Part shown: in pieces, positions 42,765-57,053 of the stretch
How the letters are laid out: the number at the start of each line of letters is the position of its first letter
How positions within the stretch are numbered: position 1 is the stretch's first letter
Origin: Ferrovibrio sp.
GTDB lineage: Bacteria; Pseudomonadota; Alphaproteobacteria; Ferrovibrionales; Ferrovibrionaceae
Assembly: GCF_002796975.1 (NCBI RefSeq)
Contig: NZ_PEKV01000005.1
Coordinates: 467,541 to 531,540 of the forward strand
Direction: 5' to 3'
DNA: 64,000 nucleotides
Notes under the pieces: model-generated
Databases searched by the model: none
What the model was told of the DNA's origin: nothing
What the model saw: the letters and a program-made list of their open reading frames with translations, nothing else
Made by a program: the position numbers and the translations under genes

Positions 42765-42804
42765 AGTGTTATTGGCCTGTCTAAATCGGCAGGCCAATAA
42801 CACT
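42765..42804 (+). terminator. Terminator of the third TctC gene
   Basis: AGTGTTATTGGCCTG (42765-42779) pairs perfectly over 15 bp with CAGGCCAATAACACT (42790-42804). The T run after it is weak (TTCAG). Confidence 0.75.
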
Positions 42805-42852
42805 TTCAGTACCGTTGATTTAATCGAAGCAGCAAATTCCCATCCGATTAAA

Positions 42853-43131
42853 ATGAATATCACACAGCTTGAGACATTGGTTTGGCTGAGCCGACTGAGA
42901 AGCTTTAGGAAAGTAGCTCAGCAACTCGGCACGTCGCAGCCAGCGATATCGATGCGCATTCGCCAGCTTGAGCGCGAGCTTGGGGTCACTCTATTTCGAC
43001 GTAGCCCAACCCGAACTCAACTGACAGAGAACGGCCGTCAATTGCTGGAATATGCTGTGGCAATAACTGATCTCGCGTCGCAGCTCGTGCAAAAGGCGGC
43101 CAAAACATCTGGCCATATGACGCACCCATAA
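42853..43131 (+). pseudogene. LysR-family regulator, truncated after the DNA-binding domain
   Basis: From ATG 42853 the reading encodes only 92 residues. They are a LysR winged helix (QLETLVWLSRLRSFRKVAQQLGTSQPAISMRIRQLEREL and LFRRSPTRTQLTENGRQLL) and the start of the linker helix. The 200-residue effector-binding domain is missing: the frame stops at 43131, only 39 bp before the first 46-bp repeat. The truncation point marks the boundary between the catabolic block and the mobile island. A free winged-helix protein could still bind DNA, but loss of function is more likely. Confidence 0.75.
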
Positions 43132-43169: not shown

Positions 43170-43282
43170 GTAGAATTGGCTACTAGCTACTGGTCGGGAG
43201 TAAAATGCCTAGTGAGTAGATTTTACGAACTTAGGCTCGGCGAGTAGGTTATGCCGGGCGTAGACGGCCTCTAAAAAGAGGC
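43170..43282 (+). repeat. 46-bp repeat units (locus C) and hairpin
   Basis: GTAGAATTG at 43170 and GTAGATTTT at 43216 start units exactly 46 bp apart; a third start, GTAGACGG, follows 44 bp later at 43260. The AAAATGCCT tail and the GCTCGGCGAG core are shared with loci A and B. A hairpin GCCTCT-AAAA-AGAGGC (43267-43282) follows. The rest of the gene-free stretch to 43422 is GC-rich with no recognised feature. Confidence 0.65.
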
Positions 43283-43422
43283 AAGATGGGCTCCGCACGG
43301 GTTCGCCGCCATCCCCATCCCCGCGCTCGATCCGCCTCACAGTGCGGCGTCTCCCGCGGTCCCCGCGCTTCTGGGTCCGGGTCCCCATATAGAAAAGCAG
43401 GCTAGCTCGAAGACGGCCTGGA

Positions 43423-44331
43423 TCACGCACTGGTCGGGCCGGTTGCCTCGAGATCGGTAATCTTCTGAAATTCTGCCAAGATCTCTTGGTGCCACTGGGC
43501 CAGGTAACGAACCACCTTGGCGTTGCTCAGCAAGCGCCCGAGGTAGCCCTTGATCAACACCAGGTCGAGGTGGTCTGTGCCGTAGCTTTGCTCAGCGATC
43601 TTGAGTTCGCGGTCGAGATTGCCCGCTTCACGCTCCATAAGCGCAATCTGCTCGCCACTAAGACCCTTCGTAGATCGTGGCTTGCGGCCAGCGACCAGAT
43701 TTGCAGCTGGGGTTGCCGCCACCAACGACCGTACATAGCCGATGGTAAATTTATTCATCGCAATCATGATCTCGGCGGCTTCGATCTGCCGCATCGGCAC
43801 CATCTTCTTGAGCTCCCAGAAGGCATTCAGGGCGATATGTTTGTCTTTGAGCAATTCGGCGGCTTCTGGGCAAATGCCGTCCAGTAGCCTTCGTTTTCTC
43901 TTAATGCTGCCGACATCGACATTGAGGGCGCGCGCAATACGCTCTTCTGATGCGCCCCGCTCCAGCGCCTTCAAGATCATGCGATGCTCTTGGATGATCG
44001 CGAGGCGGTTGACGCGTTTGTTGTAGGTAAAGGCTTCGTCGTCGGTCGAAACGAGGCAGATCACGCTTGTTTCGCCCATGGCTTGCAGGACGTCGAGGCG
44101 TAGGTGGCCGTCCAGCAGAATGTATTTTGCCGTGTCACGCGGGTCATGGGCGACGATCGGGGGTTCTACCAGGCCGACTTCCTGAATGGATGCCACGATC
44201 TGGGCATACTTTGCGCTAGTGCGTATTTGGTCTGTCACGGGGTGCAGCGCCCGGATATCCGCGATGCTGATACGCACTCCGGTTGCCTCGAAGCCCATCG
44301 CGATCGCCTGGCGATATGCGGATTCAGGCAT
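43423..44331 (-). CDS. RepB-like ParB-family protein
   Basis: From ATG 44331 the product is 302 residues. The N-terminal ParB/Srx domain is visible (IRALHPV, YAQIVASIQEVGLVEPPIVA, KYILLDGHLRLDVLQAMG), followed by a helix-turn-helix (ERGASEERIARALNVDVGSIKRKRRLL) and a helical C-terminal domain like that of plasmid partition protein RepB. The DGHLR motif replaces the GHRR of CTPase-type ParB. The start overlaps the stop of the upstream ParB gene by 8 bp, so the two are coupled. No ParA gene is nearby, so classical partition is unlikely. Confidence 0.85.
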   Translation of the reverse strand: MPESAYRQAIAMGFEATGVRISIADIRALHPVTDQIRTSAKYAQIVASIQEVGLVEPPIVAHDPRDTAKYILLDGHLRLDVLQAMGETSVICLVSTDDEAFTYNKRVNRLAIIQEHRMILKALERGASEERIARALNVDVGSIKRKRRLLDGICPEAAELLKDKHIALNAFWELKKMVPMRQIEAAEIMIAMNKFTIGYVRSLVAATPAANLVAGRKPRSTKGLSGEQIALMEREAGNLDRELKIAEQSYGTDHLDLVLIKGYLGRLLSNAKVVRYLAQWHQEILAEFQKITDLEATGPTSA

Positions 44332-45211
44332 TCCAAAGGCCCTTTCCGCCGAGTAAGCGATCGGCCAGGTTCTTCGGAAGGGTGTCGAGGCCCTCGGCCC
44401 GCAGCAGAGTGACAAAGTTCTCGTCCGCGAAAAGTTTGCGAATCGCCTCGGTCATAAAGACTAAGCGGTCGCGGGTGGCCTCGGCCTTACGTACGAGTAG
44501 GCGCTTTTTTTCGGCGTCATCACGGTATGCACGTAGCAGGGCATCCGAAGTGACCAGGCCTGTACGATGGTAGCTGCCGCGCAACCCCTTGCCCCGCCGG
44601 CGTCGGCTTTCGATCAAGCGTTTGGCCATTAATAGCCGGCGACCGCGCAGCTGGCGGCTCTCATAGGCCTTTTGCAGAATATCTTGAACGCCGGCATCAT
44701 CTGTATCGGCGATGGAAACCGCTACGCTTACCGGTATCAAGCCAGTTTCTACAGAGCGCAAAAGCCTGGTTTCACCATTTTCCAATAGTTTAAGGACGCC
44801 CTTCGCGTATTCGAGGGTTAGGCCGGTCTTGGTGGCGATTTCGTATTCACTGTAGCCACGCTGTTTCAGGCCTGAGATGTCGCGCAGCAGGTCGATGGCG
44901 CGATGCTGCCGCCGTGCGAGGTTTTCAACCAAGCTCATAACTAGTGAATCTTCTTCGCCCGCCTCTACAATCAGGGCAGGGATCTCAACCTGACCAAGCG
45001 CTTGATAGGCCTCTAATCGTCCCTGGCCACAGACCAGGTCATACCGGTCACCGTTGTCGCGGCGAATAACGGTGACGGGGCGCTTGAGGCCGAGTTGAGC
45101 GATGTTGTCGGTGATTTCTCGGAAGACCTTGCGATTGCGCACCCGGGGGTTGACCACGGTGATGCGATCGATTGGCACCATCTCAACCTGCGGCACTTGG
45201 TCGGGCTGCAT
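44324..45211 (-). CDS. ParB-family protein coupled to a serine recombinase
   Basis: The 295-residue protein has the ParB N-terminal domain (VEMVPIDRITVVNPRVRNRKVFREITDNIAQLGLKRPVTV and LVCGQGRLEAYQALG) and a helix-turn-helix segment (LKQRGYSEYEIATKTGLTLEYAKGVLKLL). GQGRLEA stands in place of the usual GERRLRA. It overlaps the recombinase stop as TGATG and the next ParB-like start by 8 bp, giving a tight three-gene operon. A role in positioning or regulating the recombinase, or a nuclease role as in some Srx/ParB relatives, is possible. Confidence 0.87.
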   Translation of the reverse strand: MQPDQVPQVEMVPIDRITVVNPRVRNRKVFREITDNIAQLGLKRPVTVIRRDNGDRYDLVCGQGRLEAYQALGQVEIPALIVEAGEEDSLVMSLVENLARRQHRAIDLLRDISGLKQRGYSEYEIATKTGLTLEYAKGVLKLLENGETRLLRSVETGLIPVSVAVSIADTDDAGVQDILQKAYESRQLRGRRLLMAKRLIESRRRRGKGLRGSYHRTGLVTSDALLRAYRDDAEKKRLLVRKAEATRDRLVFMTEAIRKLFADENFVTLLRAEGLDTLPKNLADRLLGGKGLWNA

Positions 45212-46794
45212 CAGGCCATCTCCATAAGCTGCGACCGCATGGCCATGACATAGAGGTGGTCCAATGTGTCAAACCGGTAGGCATCAAACGAGAGGCCATT
45301 GTCTTGGGCAAGCCGAAGCCTAGGTGGCGACACATCAATGCGCGGCAGCAGGTAATAGTCGATCGGCTGGCGGTTTAATTCGTCCATGCGAACAGCCACG
45401 GTAATATCGGGCGAGAGGCTAGTGTCGAACCGAATATGCCAGCGCAATGCGCCGCCCCAGGTTTCGCGACAGCGCGATATGACAATCGATGCTGTGAACT
45501 CGCGGTTGACGCTGAGAAGGTCGGTATCGGGGTCTCGCTGAATCTCACCACCAACCCGGGCGATTTCACGGCTCGTGTCATCGACCACCTGGTGGTGCAT
45601 TTGCCGTAGTATCTTGTTGATTTCGACGTAATCGTAGTCGCGATCGGGCCGAAATCCGACCATGTGATAGGCGCGTAAGAGGCTGCCGAACCTGGTGCGA
45701 TAGGCGCTACTTGAAGGCAAGCGCTCAGATTCATCGATGATCAGGCCAGACAGGTAGCCGCGGTCATCGAACGTAGCGCGGAGAAGCTGCAGCATTTCGT
45801 CGTTTGACAGACGGTCTGATCTGCTCGCGATGCGATCTTGAGCAGCTGCGAAAAGCTCAGGCGCGACCAGTGGCTCAAATGCGCCATCGGCACGCACCCA
45901 CATGGCTGGTACGTTCTGAATTCTGCGCCCCTTGAGCTTGCACGAGACCCGGTTCCAAACATTGTTCCCGGCATACTTCTCGTTAATAAGTACCTGATGC
46001 ACGGTGCCTCGGTTCCATGGGCGGTCAAGATCAGTGCGCAGACCCCTTAAGTTGAGTGCTGCCGCGATGTCGCGCTCTGAGCGGCCCTCTTGGACGAAGG
46101 CGTGGTACATCCAACGGACGGTTTCGACTTCTTCTTCTGGGCCTGGCACCAAGATGATGCGGTCTGTTTGGATGCTTTTGTGCTCGCCCCGCGTCAGCAC
46201 GCCTTTTTGCTCACCCCCCTGGTCGATCAACATGCGCCTCAGGCCGTATCCTGGCGGCCCGCCTTGGCGATACCCGAGCTCGATGAGATGGCATTGACCC
46301 GTAAAAACCTTGACTGAGAGCTCTCTGCTGTATTCGCCGGCCATTGCCCGCTTTACGCCCTTAACGATCGTCGATACTGGGCTTCCGTCATTCTCGAACT
46401 GCTCGGCACAGTACAGGACCCTGATGCCTGCCCGGCGGCAGATATATTCGTAGTAGGCGCTTTCATCCGCATCTTGGAAGCGACCCCACCGACTGACGTC
46501 GTAGACAAGAATTGCTGAGAAATCCGCCAAGTGCTCTTGGACATCAGAGATGAGCTTCTGAAGAGAAGCGCGACCATCTAGGCTTAATCCGCTCTTGCCT
46601 TCATCAGCGTAGGTTCTGACAATGCGGTAGCCCTTGCCGTCAGCGTATTTCTGTATGATCTCGGCTTGGTTTTGAGTTGAATATTTTTGATGTTCGGTAG
46701 ACATTCTTACGTACTGAGCGGCCCGCGTGAGGGTCGCTAGCGTGCCTCGATTGTCTAAGCCAACATCTACTGTCTCAGTGAGCATGGCGGGCAT
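45211..46794 (-). CDS. Large serine recombinase
   Basis: The 527-residue protein begins with a resolvase domain: AAQYVRMSTEHQKYSTQNQ with the nucleophile S32, then AILVYDVSRWGRF and GVKRAMAGEYSRELSVKV. A recombinase domain follows (GGPPGYGLRRM, EVETVRWMYHAFVQEGRSERDIAAALNLRGL). The long cysteine-rich zinc ribbon and coiled coil of phage integrases are not evident: the C-terminal 150 residues are different and unassigned. It heads an operon with two ParB-like genes and is divergent from a small gene at 46810. It is the main candidate for mobilising this island, together with the P4-type integrase. Confidence 0.9.
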   Translation of the reverse strand: MPAMLTETVDVGLDNRGTLATLTRAAQYVRMSTEHQKYSTQNQAEIIQKYADGKGYRIVRTYADEGKSGLSLDGRASLQKLISDVQEHLADFSAILVYDVSRWGRFQDADESAYYEYICRRAGIRVLYCAEQFENDGSPVSTIVKGVKRAMAGEYSRELSVKVFTGQCHLIELGYRQGGPPGYGLRRMLIDQGGEQKGVLTRGEHKSIQTDRIILVPGPEEEVETVRWMYHAFVQEGRSERDIAAALNLRGLRTDLDRPWNRGTVHQVLINEKYAGNNVWNRVSCKLKGRRIQNVPAMWVRADGAFEPLVAPELFAAAQDRIASRSDRLSNDEMLQLLRATFDDRGYLSGLIIDESERLPSSSAYRTRFGSLLRAYHMVGFRPDRDYDYVEINKILRQMHHQVVDDTSREIARVGGEIQRDPDTDLLSVNREFTASIVISRCRETWGGALRWHIRFDTSLSPDITVAVRMDELNRQPIDYYLLPRIDVSPPRLRLAQDNGLSFDAYRFDTLDHLYVMAMRSQLMEMA

Positions 46795-46809: not shown

Positions 46810-47241
46810 ATGACCGTGATGGCGTTATTGAAGAGGGGCTTTGAAGCACTCCCTCTCAGGCCATCAATTGACCGCATGTTAGTCCTGAGGTGCGGAATGT
46901 GGTTGCAAAAGACGGGCAATGTCTTTCCCACCAAAGCGAGCCCTGTATCTGCGGCTCTCTATGCCAGCGCCATTTCTCAAGCACTTCGGCATGAGCTTGG
47001 TGAAACACCGAATGCCGTAAAGATTGTTGCGCGATGGACTGGGGCCAGTGAGCGTACCGTAAAGAATTGGTTCTCTGCTCGCTGCGGTCCTAGTGGCGAG
47101 CATCTAATCGCTTTAGCTCAGCATTCTTCCGATGTGTTGGAAGTATTTCTTTTGTTATCTGGGCATGAACGTCGTGTGAGCTCGGCAAAATTGGACTTAA
47201 TAAAGACCCGGCTCAGTGAGATTCTCAAGTTACTCGAATGA
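46810..47241 (+). CDS. Small regulator-like protein divergent from the recombinase
   Basis: The reading of 143 residues includes a helical core LYASAISQALRHELGETPNAVKIVARWTGASERTVKNWFSARCGPSGEHLIALAQHS, which resembles a helix-turn-helix found beside integrases of alphaproteobacterial elements. The true start may be a later ATG (46876 or 46897), because the first 25 residues look unstructured. It stands only 15 bp from the recombinase start in the opposite direction, so it may repress or activate that gene. The assignment as DNA-binding is inference. Confidence 0.65.
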   Translation: MTVMALLKRGFEALPLRPSIDRMLVLRCGMWLQKTGNVFPTKASPVSAALYASAISQALRHELGETPNAVKIVARWTGASERTVKNWFSARCGPSGEHLIALAQHSSDVLEVFLLLSGHERRVSSAKLDLIKTRLSEILKLLE

Positions 47242-47899: not shown

Positions 47900-49210
47900 C
47901 TAAGCTGCCTTTTGAATTTGATGATATTCTGCGTCAGCTTCATCAGCGCCGGCCTGCAGAAGGTCTGCGATATGCTGCGAGACTTTTGTTGCTGCGGCGA
48001 CCAAGCTGGAATCCAGGTGGTGAATATAGCGGCTGGTGATGGTGCCAAGCCGATGTCCAAGCATCGAGGCGATTGTAGCTTCAGTGAAGCCAAGCTCATT
48101 GGCCATCGTCGCGAATGAATGCCTCAGCGTATGCAAAGTCACATTGAAGCGGCCCTCTTCATCGCGGTCATCGAGTTTGGCGGTGTCACGCACAAGGTTC
48201 ATGATCTTGGGCGTGCCGTCATAATGCGGTCCGCGATCACCAGGCAAGATGGCATCTGTATTGTTGTATCGCGGCAAGGTCTGTAACAGACCAAGTACGA
48301 CTTGGCCCAAGGGGCGAATGCTTTTGCCGGTCTTGGTCGCCGGCAGGCGTAAGCAGCTACGCGGGAAATCGATATAGGACCAGTGAAGGGTCTGGATTTC
48401 GTTCTTGCGGCAGCCGGTGAGGGCGAGAAGCCGAATAACGGTTAGGCCCTTTTGATTGGCGCCGCTGATCTCAGCAAAGCGCAGGGCTTTGCCTAGGGCC
48501 CGGTATTCCTCAGGGGTCAAATACCGATCGCGCACCCGGTCGCGCCGCCGCTCGACGCCGTGCGCTGGGTTGTCGGCTCTCAGGCCGTTGCGGACCCCAT
48601 ATTGCAAGATAGCCCCGAGCAGCCCGACGGTACGCGTAGCAGTGCCCCAGCCGCCGTCAACAATGGCCTTACCGCGCTTTTTGGTGACAACCACCGCCTT
48701 GGTCTTGCCGGCGACGATGTCGTTCATAAAACGACGGACATCGACCTTGGTGAGGTCTTTGACCTTCTTGCGACCCAGCAGGGGCTTGATATGGCGCTCT
48801 GCCCTGCCGACGTCTGTAGCGAGGGTGGAGGGGCGTTTCGGCACCCCGGCGCGGGTCAATATCCGGCCAGCCAGAGCGTCTTTAAAATACATGTCACAAA
48901 GCTCGCCGACCGTCTGGGCGGCTTTCTCGTCGCGCTTGGCTTGCGCGGGGTCGCCACCCTGCGCAATGGTCCCTAAAAGCTTCAGGGCTTCGTTACGGGC
49001 CATTTCGGCGGTGAACGGGGATCCGTGCTTCCCAATGGTCAGCCATTGCTGCTGCCCCTTCACGATGCTTTTCAGAAAATAGACGGTTTTAGACTTCTGG
49101 CAGCGGGCTCCAAGCCCGACCACTTCGGTGTCGAAAATGGTCTCGCCTGGACGTAGTGCGTCGACTGCTCGTTTGGTGATTCGAACTTTTGACACCTGCT
49201 GTCCTTCCAA
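47900..49210 (-). CDS. P4-type tyrosine integrase
   Basis: The 436-residue protein has the P4/DUF4102 arrangement: an N-terminal arm-binding domain (VRITKRAVDALRPGETIFDTEVVGLGAR), a core-binding domain (about 100-210) and a catalytic domain with R268 (TGCRKNEI), H360 and R363 (LHTLRHSF), H386 (LGHRLG) and the nucleophile Y395 (TSRYIH). It begins 145 bp from a 3' fragment of tRNA-Arg(CCG), the usual site of such enzymes. A decayed homologue occupies the same position next to the second tRNA-Arg fragment at 56885. Confidence 0.93.
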   Translation of the reverse strand: MEGQQVSKVRITKRAVDALRPGETIFDTEVVGLGARCQKSKTVYFLKSIVKGQQQWLTIGKHGSPFTAEMARNEALKLLGTIAQGGDPAQAKRDEKAAQTVGELCDMYFKDALAGRILTRAGVPKRPSTLATDVGRAERHIKPLLGRKKVKDLTKVDVRRFMNDIVAGKTKAVVVTKKRGKAIVDGGWGTATRTVGLLGAILQYGVRNGLRADNPAHGVERRRDRVRDRYLTPEEYRALGKALRFAEISGANQKGLTVIRLLALTGCRKNEIQTLHWSYIDFPRSCLRLPATKTGKSIRPLGQVVLGLLQTLPRYNNTDAILPGDRGPHYDGTPKIMNLVRDTAKLDDRDEEGRFNVTLHTLRHSFATMANELGFTEATIASMLGHRLGTITSRYIHHLDSSLVAAATKVSQHIADLLQAGADEADAEYHQIQKAA

Positions 49211-49354: not shown

Positions 49355-49403
49355 CTCCGAAGGCAGAGGCCACAAGTTCGAATCTTGTCGGGTGCACCAT
49401 TTT
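49355..49403 (+). pseudogene. 3' fragment of tRNA-Arg(CCG): attachment site copy 1
   Basis: The sequence reads anticodon loop CTCCGAA, stem GGCAG, variable AGGCC, T arm ACAAG-TTCGAAT-CTTGT, acceptor CGGGTGC and ACCA, followed by TTTT. No D arm or 5' acceptor strand precedes it, so it is only the 3' half of tRNA-Arg with anticodon CCG. The 49 bases are identical to 56885-56933. The P4-type integrase lies directly to its left. Confidence 0.85.
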
Positions 49404-49673
49404 TTCAAATACTTACTGATTTCTGAATGGGCAGAGAGCGCTGTAGCTGCAGCCTGGCTGCCGACGGATCATGCCTTTTTCAGATGCTGTGAGCTGGCGT
49501 TAAACCGAATCCTCACAGGTGGCTGGAGTGATTCGATGATCACGGAGCCGGTTCGGAGAGCGGTGCCGCAAATCCGCAAATCCTTTGCTGCGTCCAATGG
49601 GGCAAAAGCCCCCCTGTCCGCTGCGGGCGTCCCGCGGGATTCCCGGCCGCCGGACAAACCGCCGGTTTGTATT

Positions 49674-56884: not shown

Positions 56885-56933
56885 CTCCGAAGGCAGAGGC
56901 CACAAGTTCGAATCTTGTCGGGTGCACCATTTT
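56885..56933 (+). pseudogene. 3' fragment of tRNA-Arg(CCG): attachment site copy 2
   Basis: These 49 bases are identical to 49355-49403. As there, no D arm or 5' acceptor strand precedes them, so no functional tRNA is encoded here. The copies bound a 7.5-kb unit with the sugar-transporter operon and a decayed integrase. The rest of the gene-free stretch 56467-57053 holds the integrase remnant, a GTAGCTACA motif at 56768 shared with the leader of the intact integrase, and nothing else I recognise. Confidence 0.85.
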
Positions 56934-57053
56934 CTCTGGAATTTCCGCCCATTACCGCAGCCGTGACCGCTGCCTTTCGCGACCGGTGCCTCGTCGTGCC
57001 GGGCGTTGCGGCTATACTCGTTAACCACCGAATCGAGGTTCAGCCGGTCCCCC

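Follow-up and report, generated by a model that had tools for sequence, protein, structure and literature searches.

The DNA analysed here (the window) is a stretch of 64,000 nucleotides from Ferrovibrio sp. (contig NZ_PEKV01000005.1), and the system in question is a unit of three genes on its minus strand, together with a structured RNA element located at the end of that unit. The first gene encodes a large serine recombinase of 527 amino acids with resolvase and recombinase domains (45211..46794), and is followed by the genes for P1 (44324..45211; 295 amino acids), a ParB_N plus RepB protein with a GQGR motif and an ENxARR stretch, and P2 (43423..44331; 302 amino acids), a ParB-fold plus RepB protein with a DGHLR motif. 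The stop codon of the recombinase gene and the start codon of P1 are combined in TGATG, a 1-base-pair (bp) overlap as read from the sequence, and an overlap of 8 bp (44324-44331) joins P1 to P2, provided that P2 starts at ATG 44331, which is its likely start, the longest open reading frame (ORF) opening at TTG 44415. An operon of three overlapping genes, with altered GHRR-type motifs and without ParA, had been proposed in an original prediction made from the sequence, and these statements were confirmed: the overlaps are present in the minus-strand ORFs, the GQGR and DGHLR motifs are real and conserved across relatives, and no Pfam match to the ParA family was obtained in the unit or among the 16 window ORFs scanned. 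Two further parts, not included in that prediction, were identified, i.e. a divergent small gene (46810..47241, plus strand) and a conserved structured element (43262..43387, minus strand) situated directly 3' of P2.

The recombinase was assigned by Pfam to PF00239 (expectation value (E) 2.8e-21) and PF07508 (E 3.8e-21), and both S32, the catalytic-type serine, and R30 were shown to be invariant in 36 relatives. Its predicted model resembles large serine integrases, with 9dxd as the best match (E 4.3e-15), and the C-terminal part (approximately residues 330-527) is represented in this model by helices followed by a strand-rich domain. For a C-terminal zinc-ribbon, no Pfam match was obtained at E 0.001 and no CxxC pairs are present in the sequence, which lowers the likeness to phiC31-type integrases, not the membership of the superfamily, as some members may lack such a domain.

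P1 and P2 are paralogous in build: in each, a ParB-like part at the N-terminus is joined to a PF07506 RepB part at the C-terminus. P1 matched PF02195 ParB_N (E 6.8e-10) and PF07506 (E 4.2e-20), with Spo0J (1vz0; E 5.9e-20) as its best solved relative, and P2 matched PF07506 (E 5.1e-46), ParB_N being recognised by Pfam in P1 only. A ParB fold for P2 is supported by its predicted model (mean predicted local distance difference test score of 76), for which KorB (8qa8; E 5.5e-9) was the best Foldseek match and E values of 1e-9 to 1e-7 were obtained for the best rows (KorB, ParB and Noc), and also by a profile search that matched Noc (7ol9; E 3.3e-9). Among the ParB motifs associated with CTP binding, the usual box is of the GERR type, in the place of which GQGR is found in P1 and DGHLR in P2. 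In 34 P1 sequences, G62, G64 and R65 of GQGR are invariant, and the ENxxR motif is kept, with E96, N97 and R100 likewise invariant; in 30 P2 sequences, D74, G75 and R78 of DGHLR are invariant, and no ENxxR-like stretch was found in their alignment.

To establish the distribution of the unit, relatives were gathered from plasmids, genomes and viral contigs, and identical recombinases were removed. Among 73 distinct cassettes holding all three proteins (a requirement by which this count does not measure how often the recombinase stands alone), 72 presented the order recombinase-P1-P2 on one strand, the sole exception (L016) being a contig of 4 kilobases (kb). The genome survey for the trio that had been suggested with the original prediction revealed a conserved unit of fixed order and strand, which occurs across many proteobacteria. 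Within 385 alphaproteobacterial genomes, the recombinase was matched (E <=1e-60) at 27 places in 21 genomes, and P1 matched 198 plasmid records, 47 of these over at least 80% of the query. On IMG/VR contigs, 34 loci of the unit were found, with all three genes present in 28; the other six comprised L171 with the recombinase alone, L162 with a P1 fragment only, and L163, L170, L173 and L175 with partial matches or matches cut at the contig end. The unit was also found in chromosome-sized contigs (L009 and L026/L075) and is, with these and the viral contigs, not confined to conjugative plasmids with a separate ParA. The proposal of a new kind of integration or maintenance machine, in which the ParB proteins might guide or license the recombinase, is partly supported by this conserved unit; against it, several carrier plasmids (L029, L057 and L058) were shown to have separate ParA or ParA/ParB genes, and the trio is therefore not the partition system of its carriers, so that partition was rejected as the principal explanation. 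A literature search, covering titles and the beginnings of abstracts with subscription papers and preprints outside its scope, returned no description of the recombinase-P1-P2 unit; a report on phage WO (PMC9203015) mentions prophages in which a methylase/ParB gene occurs alongside a large serine recombinase, an arrangement other than the present operon.

The element directly 3' of P2 (termed class A) is composed of a core at approximately 43286-43387 plus a hairpin. When the window was compared with a congener (G001), DNA similarity comprised exactly the four genes and approximately 150 bp past P2. This tail holds an element of approximately 105 bp that is 75-94% identical among distant cassettes, whereas the preceding spacer and the following DNA differ, and the element core is more conserved than the adjoining P2 coding DNA. 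A total of 23 element copies could be aligned to a common fold of 29 pairs, in which 96.8% of cells are paired, compared with 87.7% in shuffles and 31-45% in slid versions. Changes on both sides were observed at 13 of the 29 pairs, corresponding to 59 such cells compared with 15.3 in shuffled alignments, and the covariation score was 0.322 compared with 0.151; these pair statistics derive from related sequences, meaning that cell counts are not independent and that kinship inflates covariation scores, as the tool itself warns. The variable 3' hairpin (helix 6 of alignment A1; 43267..43282, minus strand), which reads GCCTCT / AGAGGC in the window, consists of five pairs, all changed on both sides, with 84.3% of cells paired. 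Since G-U cells (37, at 11 pairs) outnumber A-C cells (5, at 3 pairs), the operon-sense single strand is favoured as the RNA; the operon strand was also shown to fold more stably than its complement in nine of nine cases tested. Of 15 chosen element tails, i.e. the downstream hairpins, 13 fold at a z score of -2.1 or lower (the exceptions being L127 and L128), and by eye these later hairpins are missing from the element copies of the window and its congeners. The 43262-43387 element thus behaves as a structured RNA with a covarying structure. A coding function was rejected, as length differences of one and two bases break any reading frame. Rfam returned no match in the window at E 1, and weak sub-threshold matches were obtained only in L122 and L057.

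A covariance model (R1) scored the window element at 125.8 bits, the only strong match in the genome from which the window derives, and of the 70 distinct cassettes followed by 300 bp or more of sequence, 32 carry class A RNA according to the covariance model. In the 385 alphaproteobacterial genomes, 18 strong matches were obtained in 15 genomes, in addition to three weak matches at E 0.001-0.009. All 18 strong matches lie just 3' of P2, 13 of them next to a full P2 and five next to a partial P2 (one near a contig start), most of these loci having also fed the covariance model. An earlier DNA search of the same genomes, which was blind to P2, had found the element at 17 places. That the element represents a host gene used as a target is unsupported, as every strong match in the 385 genomes adjoins P2 or a partial P2. 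In pTAV1 (L078) and p1318-6 (L080), the element is present without a detectable P2. Plasmid pSF1 of the soil bacterium Sphingobium fuliginis ATCC 27551 bears the cassette together with the element.

A candidate exchange point within the element emerged from two species of one genus (G210 and G302), the cassettes of which match without a single difference for 4,371 bp or more, as far as element column 50. From column 51 onwards the two diverge, with nine differences in the next 60 bases and different flanks beyond. Column 51 corresponds to the centre of helices 2/3 (approximately 43339/43340 in the window), which occupy columns 33-69 of the A1 alignment (43322..43358, minus strand) and form an inverted repeat of approximately 37 bp centred on the switch point. 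In L082 (Pseudorhodobacter turbinis), the element breaks off near column 57. The divergence of these two cassettes inside the RNA gene suggests that the DNA of the element is an exchange point. As two otherwise identical cassettes switch there, and as an inverted repeat is centred on the switch, the RNA gene is proposed to hold the exchange site.

Stretches other than the class A element were also observed after P2. Five betaproteobacterial-type viral contigs (L147, L148, L151, L153 and L155) share an unrelated conserved stretch of approximately 200 nucleotides, and another conserved stretch is shared by L164 and L172. In the five sequences of the L147 type, two-sided changes occur at only four of the 53 predicted pairs, with an unfavourable covariation term (+1.32) and folding z scores of -0.65 to -3.34, and a plasmid search with one such element yielded no match; a second RNA class in betaproteobacterial-type cassettes is only a lead. 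In L117, P2 is followed within approximately 60 bp by what appears by eye to be the 3' end of a tRNA gene, where ARAGORN reported no complete tRNA.

The divergent small gene encodes a protein of 143 amino acids that is helix-turn-helix-like by appearance and for which no Pfam or NCBIfam match was obtained, the conserved part beginning near residue 29-35 of the listed ORF. Relatives were found in 43 plasmid records. Of 72 distinct cassettes with 700 bp or more of upstream sequence, 44 have the gene in divergent orientation no further than 700 bp from the recombinase, which is a lower bound, the window protein having served as the only query. No conserved non-coding element was found between this gene and the recombinase gene.

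Given the order and overlap of the genes, the domains of their products, the covarying fold of the RNA and its exclusive association with P2, we interpret the unit as a site-specific recombination module of mobile elements, in which a serine recombinase acts together with P1 and P2 as ParB-fold accessory proteins and with a structured RNA or its DNA, and we assign to this interpretation a probability of roughly one half. In such a module, the recombinase would cut and join DNA at or near the element, and P1 and P2 would associate with DNA close to the exchange site and determine which sites pair, a role suggested by analogy, since accessory proteins of resolvases and serine integrases perform it. 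The RNA gene would contain the exchange site and the RNA may, in addition, be a component of the complex, while the divergent small protein may act as a regulator or directionality factor. The module would then move, fuse or resolve its carrier (a plasmid, island or virus-like element) rather than partition it.

Several observations weigh against this interpretation. Recombinase relatives with approximately 39-46% identity occur without P1 and P2 (L123, L124 and L171), indicating that the fold can work alone. Class A RNA was not detected in 38 of the 70 cassettes, and on the recombinase tree, where L077 was counted as lacking the RNA with its contig ending there, it is present in 19 of 44 rows in a scattered manner, requiring eight changes of which at least four are forced by well-supported branches; this pattern fits an old component that was lost many times, or exchange at the boundary. 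With regard to folding, the window core alone folds no better than shuffles (z +0.34), full-length elements reach z -2 in only six of the nine tested, and the measure of further pair types was less clear than the other pair statistics (31 compared with 26.6, with 11 of 500 shuffles equally high). As for the switch between G210 and G302, the exchange could have taken place at any of the first 50 columns, which are near-identical among relatives, and searches with the right flanks of both returned only the RNA parts themselves and no empty or reciprocal site in either genome. Moreover, because the 38 contexts compared included no more than a single near-identical pair, the break could be the result of homologous recombination.

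The position of the element, which follows the last gene of the operon in the same orientation and in many copies ends in strong hairpins, would also suit a 3' regulatory RNA that affects stability or termination or exerts antisense control, either on the operon or on plasmid copy number, in an otherwise ordinary serine integrase module with ParB-like regulators. Such an RNA would have no role in recombination, in agreement with the 38 cassettes that manage without it, and the PF07506 domains may be counted in favour, as genes of the RepB family occur in loci for plasmid replication and partition. We regard this explanation as possible, if rather unlikely, in view of an element core that exceeds the P2 coding DNA in conservation, its retention beside decayed P2 copies (five of the 18 strong matches) and its coincidence with the sequence switch between otherwise identical cassettes.

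That switch, lying at the centre of the approximately 37-bp inverted repeat of helices 2/3, a size like that of serine-integrase sites, would also be accommodated if the element were a DNA recombination site only, with several inverted repeats for dimers of the recombinase and the ParB-like proteins, no functional RNA, and covariation reflecting co-evolving half-sites. The asymmetry between G-U and A-C cells, as counted in related sequences, the greater stability of the operon strand in every case tested and the three further stems of changing sequence render a purely DNA-based element unlikely. The recombination module may take a form that depends on the RNA, which would be carried by P1 and P2, be part of the synapse and help to choose or pair sites, with integration rebuilding a hybrid RNA gene in every new host; this more far-reaching version is considered very doubtful. 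Plasmid maintenance, in which the recombinase would resolve multimers and the ParB-like proteins would partition with a ParA from elsewhere, is highly improbable despite the frequent occurrence on plasmids and the RepB-type C-terminal domains of P1 and P2, as carriers own ParA or ParA/ParB genes, the unit lacks ParA, and the trio is also found in chromosome-sized contigs and in the island of the window.

The window lies in tRNA-Arg(CCG) islands, of which the intact tRNA gene is located at G000:C35:416195, with copies of approximately 52 bp of the tRNA-Arg(CCG) 3' end at window positions 49355-49406 and 56885-56936; it spans the right end of an island of approximately 100 kb plus a second island of approximately 7.5 kb. 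A P4-type tyrosine integrase gene (47900-49210) is situated beside the first tRNA 3'-end copy. The island is accounted for by the tyrosine integrase and the tRNA ends, with the serine recombinase unit being either its cargo or a second layer of mobile DNA. A LysR-type regulator gene (42766-43131), lying left of the element, encodes the DNA-binding domain only and was probably cut by an insertion with an edge near 43100-43130. A self-contained transposon with two fixed ends is not supported, as the sequence shared by the window and G001 ends with the stop codon of the divergent gene on one side and approximately 150 bp past P2 on the other, and no matching outer ends of a transposon were seen in this comparison. 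In Agrobacterium, the cassettes L062 and L063 are located between ScpB/DUF1403 genes and TniQ-TniB-Mu-type transposase genes, forming a larger composite unit. Annotated defence-type genes (restriction, Abi, McrBC and phosphorothioation) were observed near the cassette on the plasmids L001, L003, L005, L007, L029, L057, L058, L061 and L062.

Large serine recombinases are in wide use as tools for genome engineering and, a few phages apart, little is known of how accessory factors control them. If the recombination module is real, two ParB-fold proteins and a structured RNA would constitute a novel mode of controlling DNA exchange, recombination would be linked to the sliding or clamping on DNA that is typical of ParB, and an RNA family with a clear genetic test would be added; its RNA-dependent version, if true, would represent the first serine recombinase with an RNA subunit. 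Even if its role is regulatory, the element represents an uncatalogued RNA and a marker of a mobile unit that is found in plasmids, chromosomes and virus-like contigs. The RNA, and not the trio alone, carries the interest, and the RNA and the divergent gene are the most informative parts.

Compared with known systems, the recombinase model aligns with the complexes of the large serine integrases YokA (SPbeta), Bxb1 and phiC31, with which it has the resolvase and recombinase domains and the invariant serine in common, and differs by its co-transcription with two ParB-like genes and the structured RNA at the operon end. P1 and P2 share the ParB fold and a helix-turn-helix region with ParB, KorB and Noc, but are encoded by two adjacent paralogous genes without ParA, each fused to PF07506. 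This C-terminal domain is common to RepB of repABC plasmids, whereas the window unit is without repA or repC, and P1 scored below the NCBIfam partition_RepB cut-off (25.9 compared with 201.5 bits), P2 not being listed. In repABC plasmids, a small RNA adjoins repB; the element described here is located on the sense strand and is without an Rfam match. Tn554-type and tripartite recombinase elements, which use tyrosine recombinases, likewise have an overlapping operon of recombinase and helper genes, in place of which one serine recombinase with two ParB-fold helpers is present here. The bridge RNA of IS110 and the omega RNA of IscB/TnpB are structured RNAs encoded beside a DNA-processing enzyme of a mobile element, an arrangement shared by the present unit with an enzyme of another class; a variable guide segment was not identified in the conserved core of the element, for which no systematic search was made. 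The novelty of the unit is the combination of its parts and the RNA, while its chemistry is that of serine recombinases.

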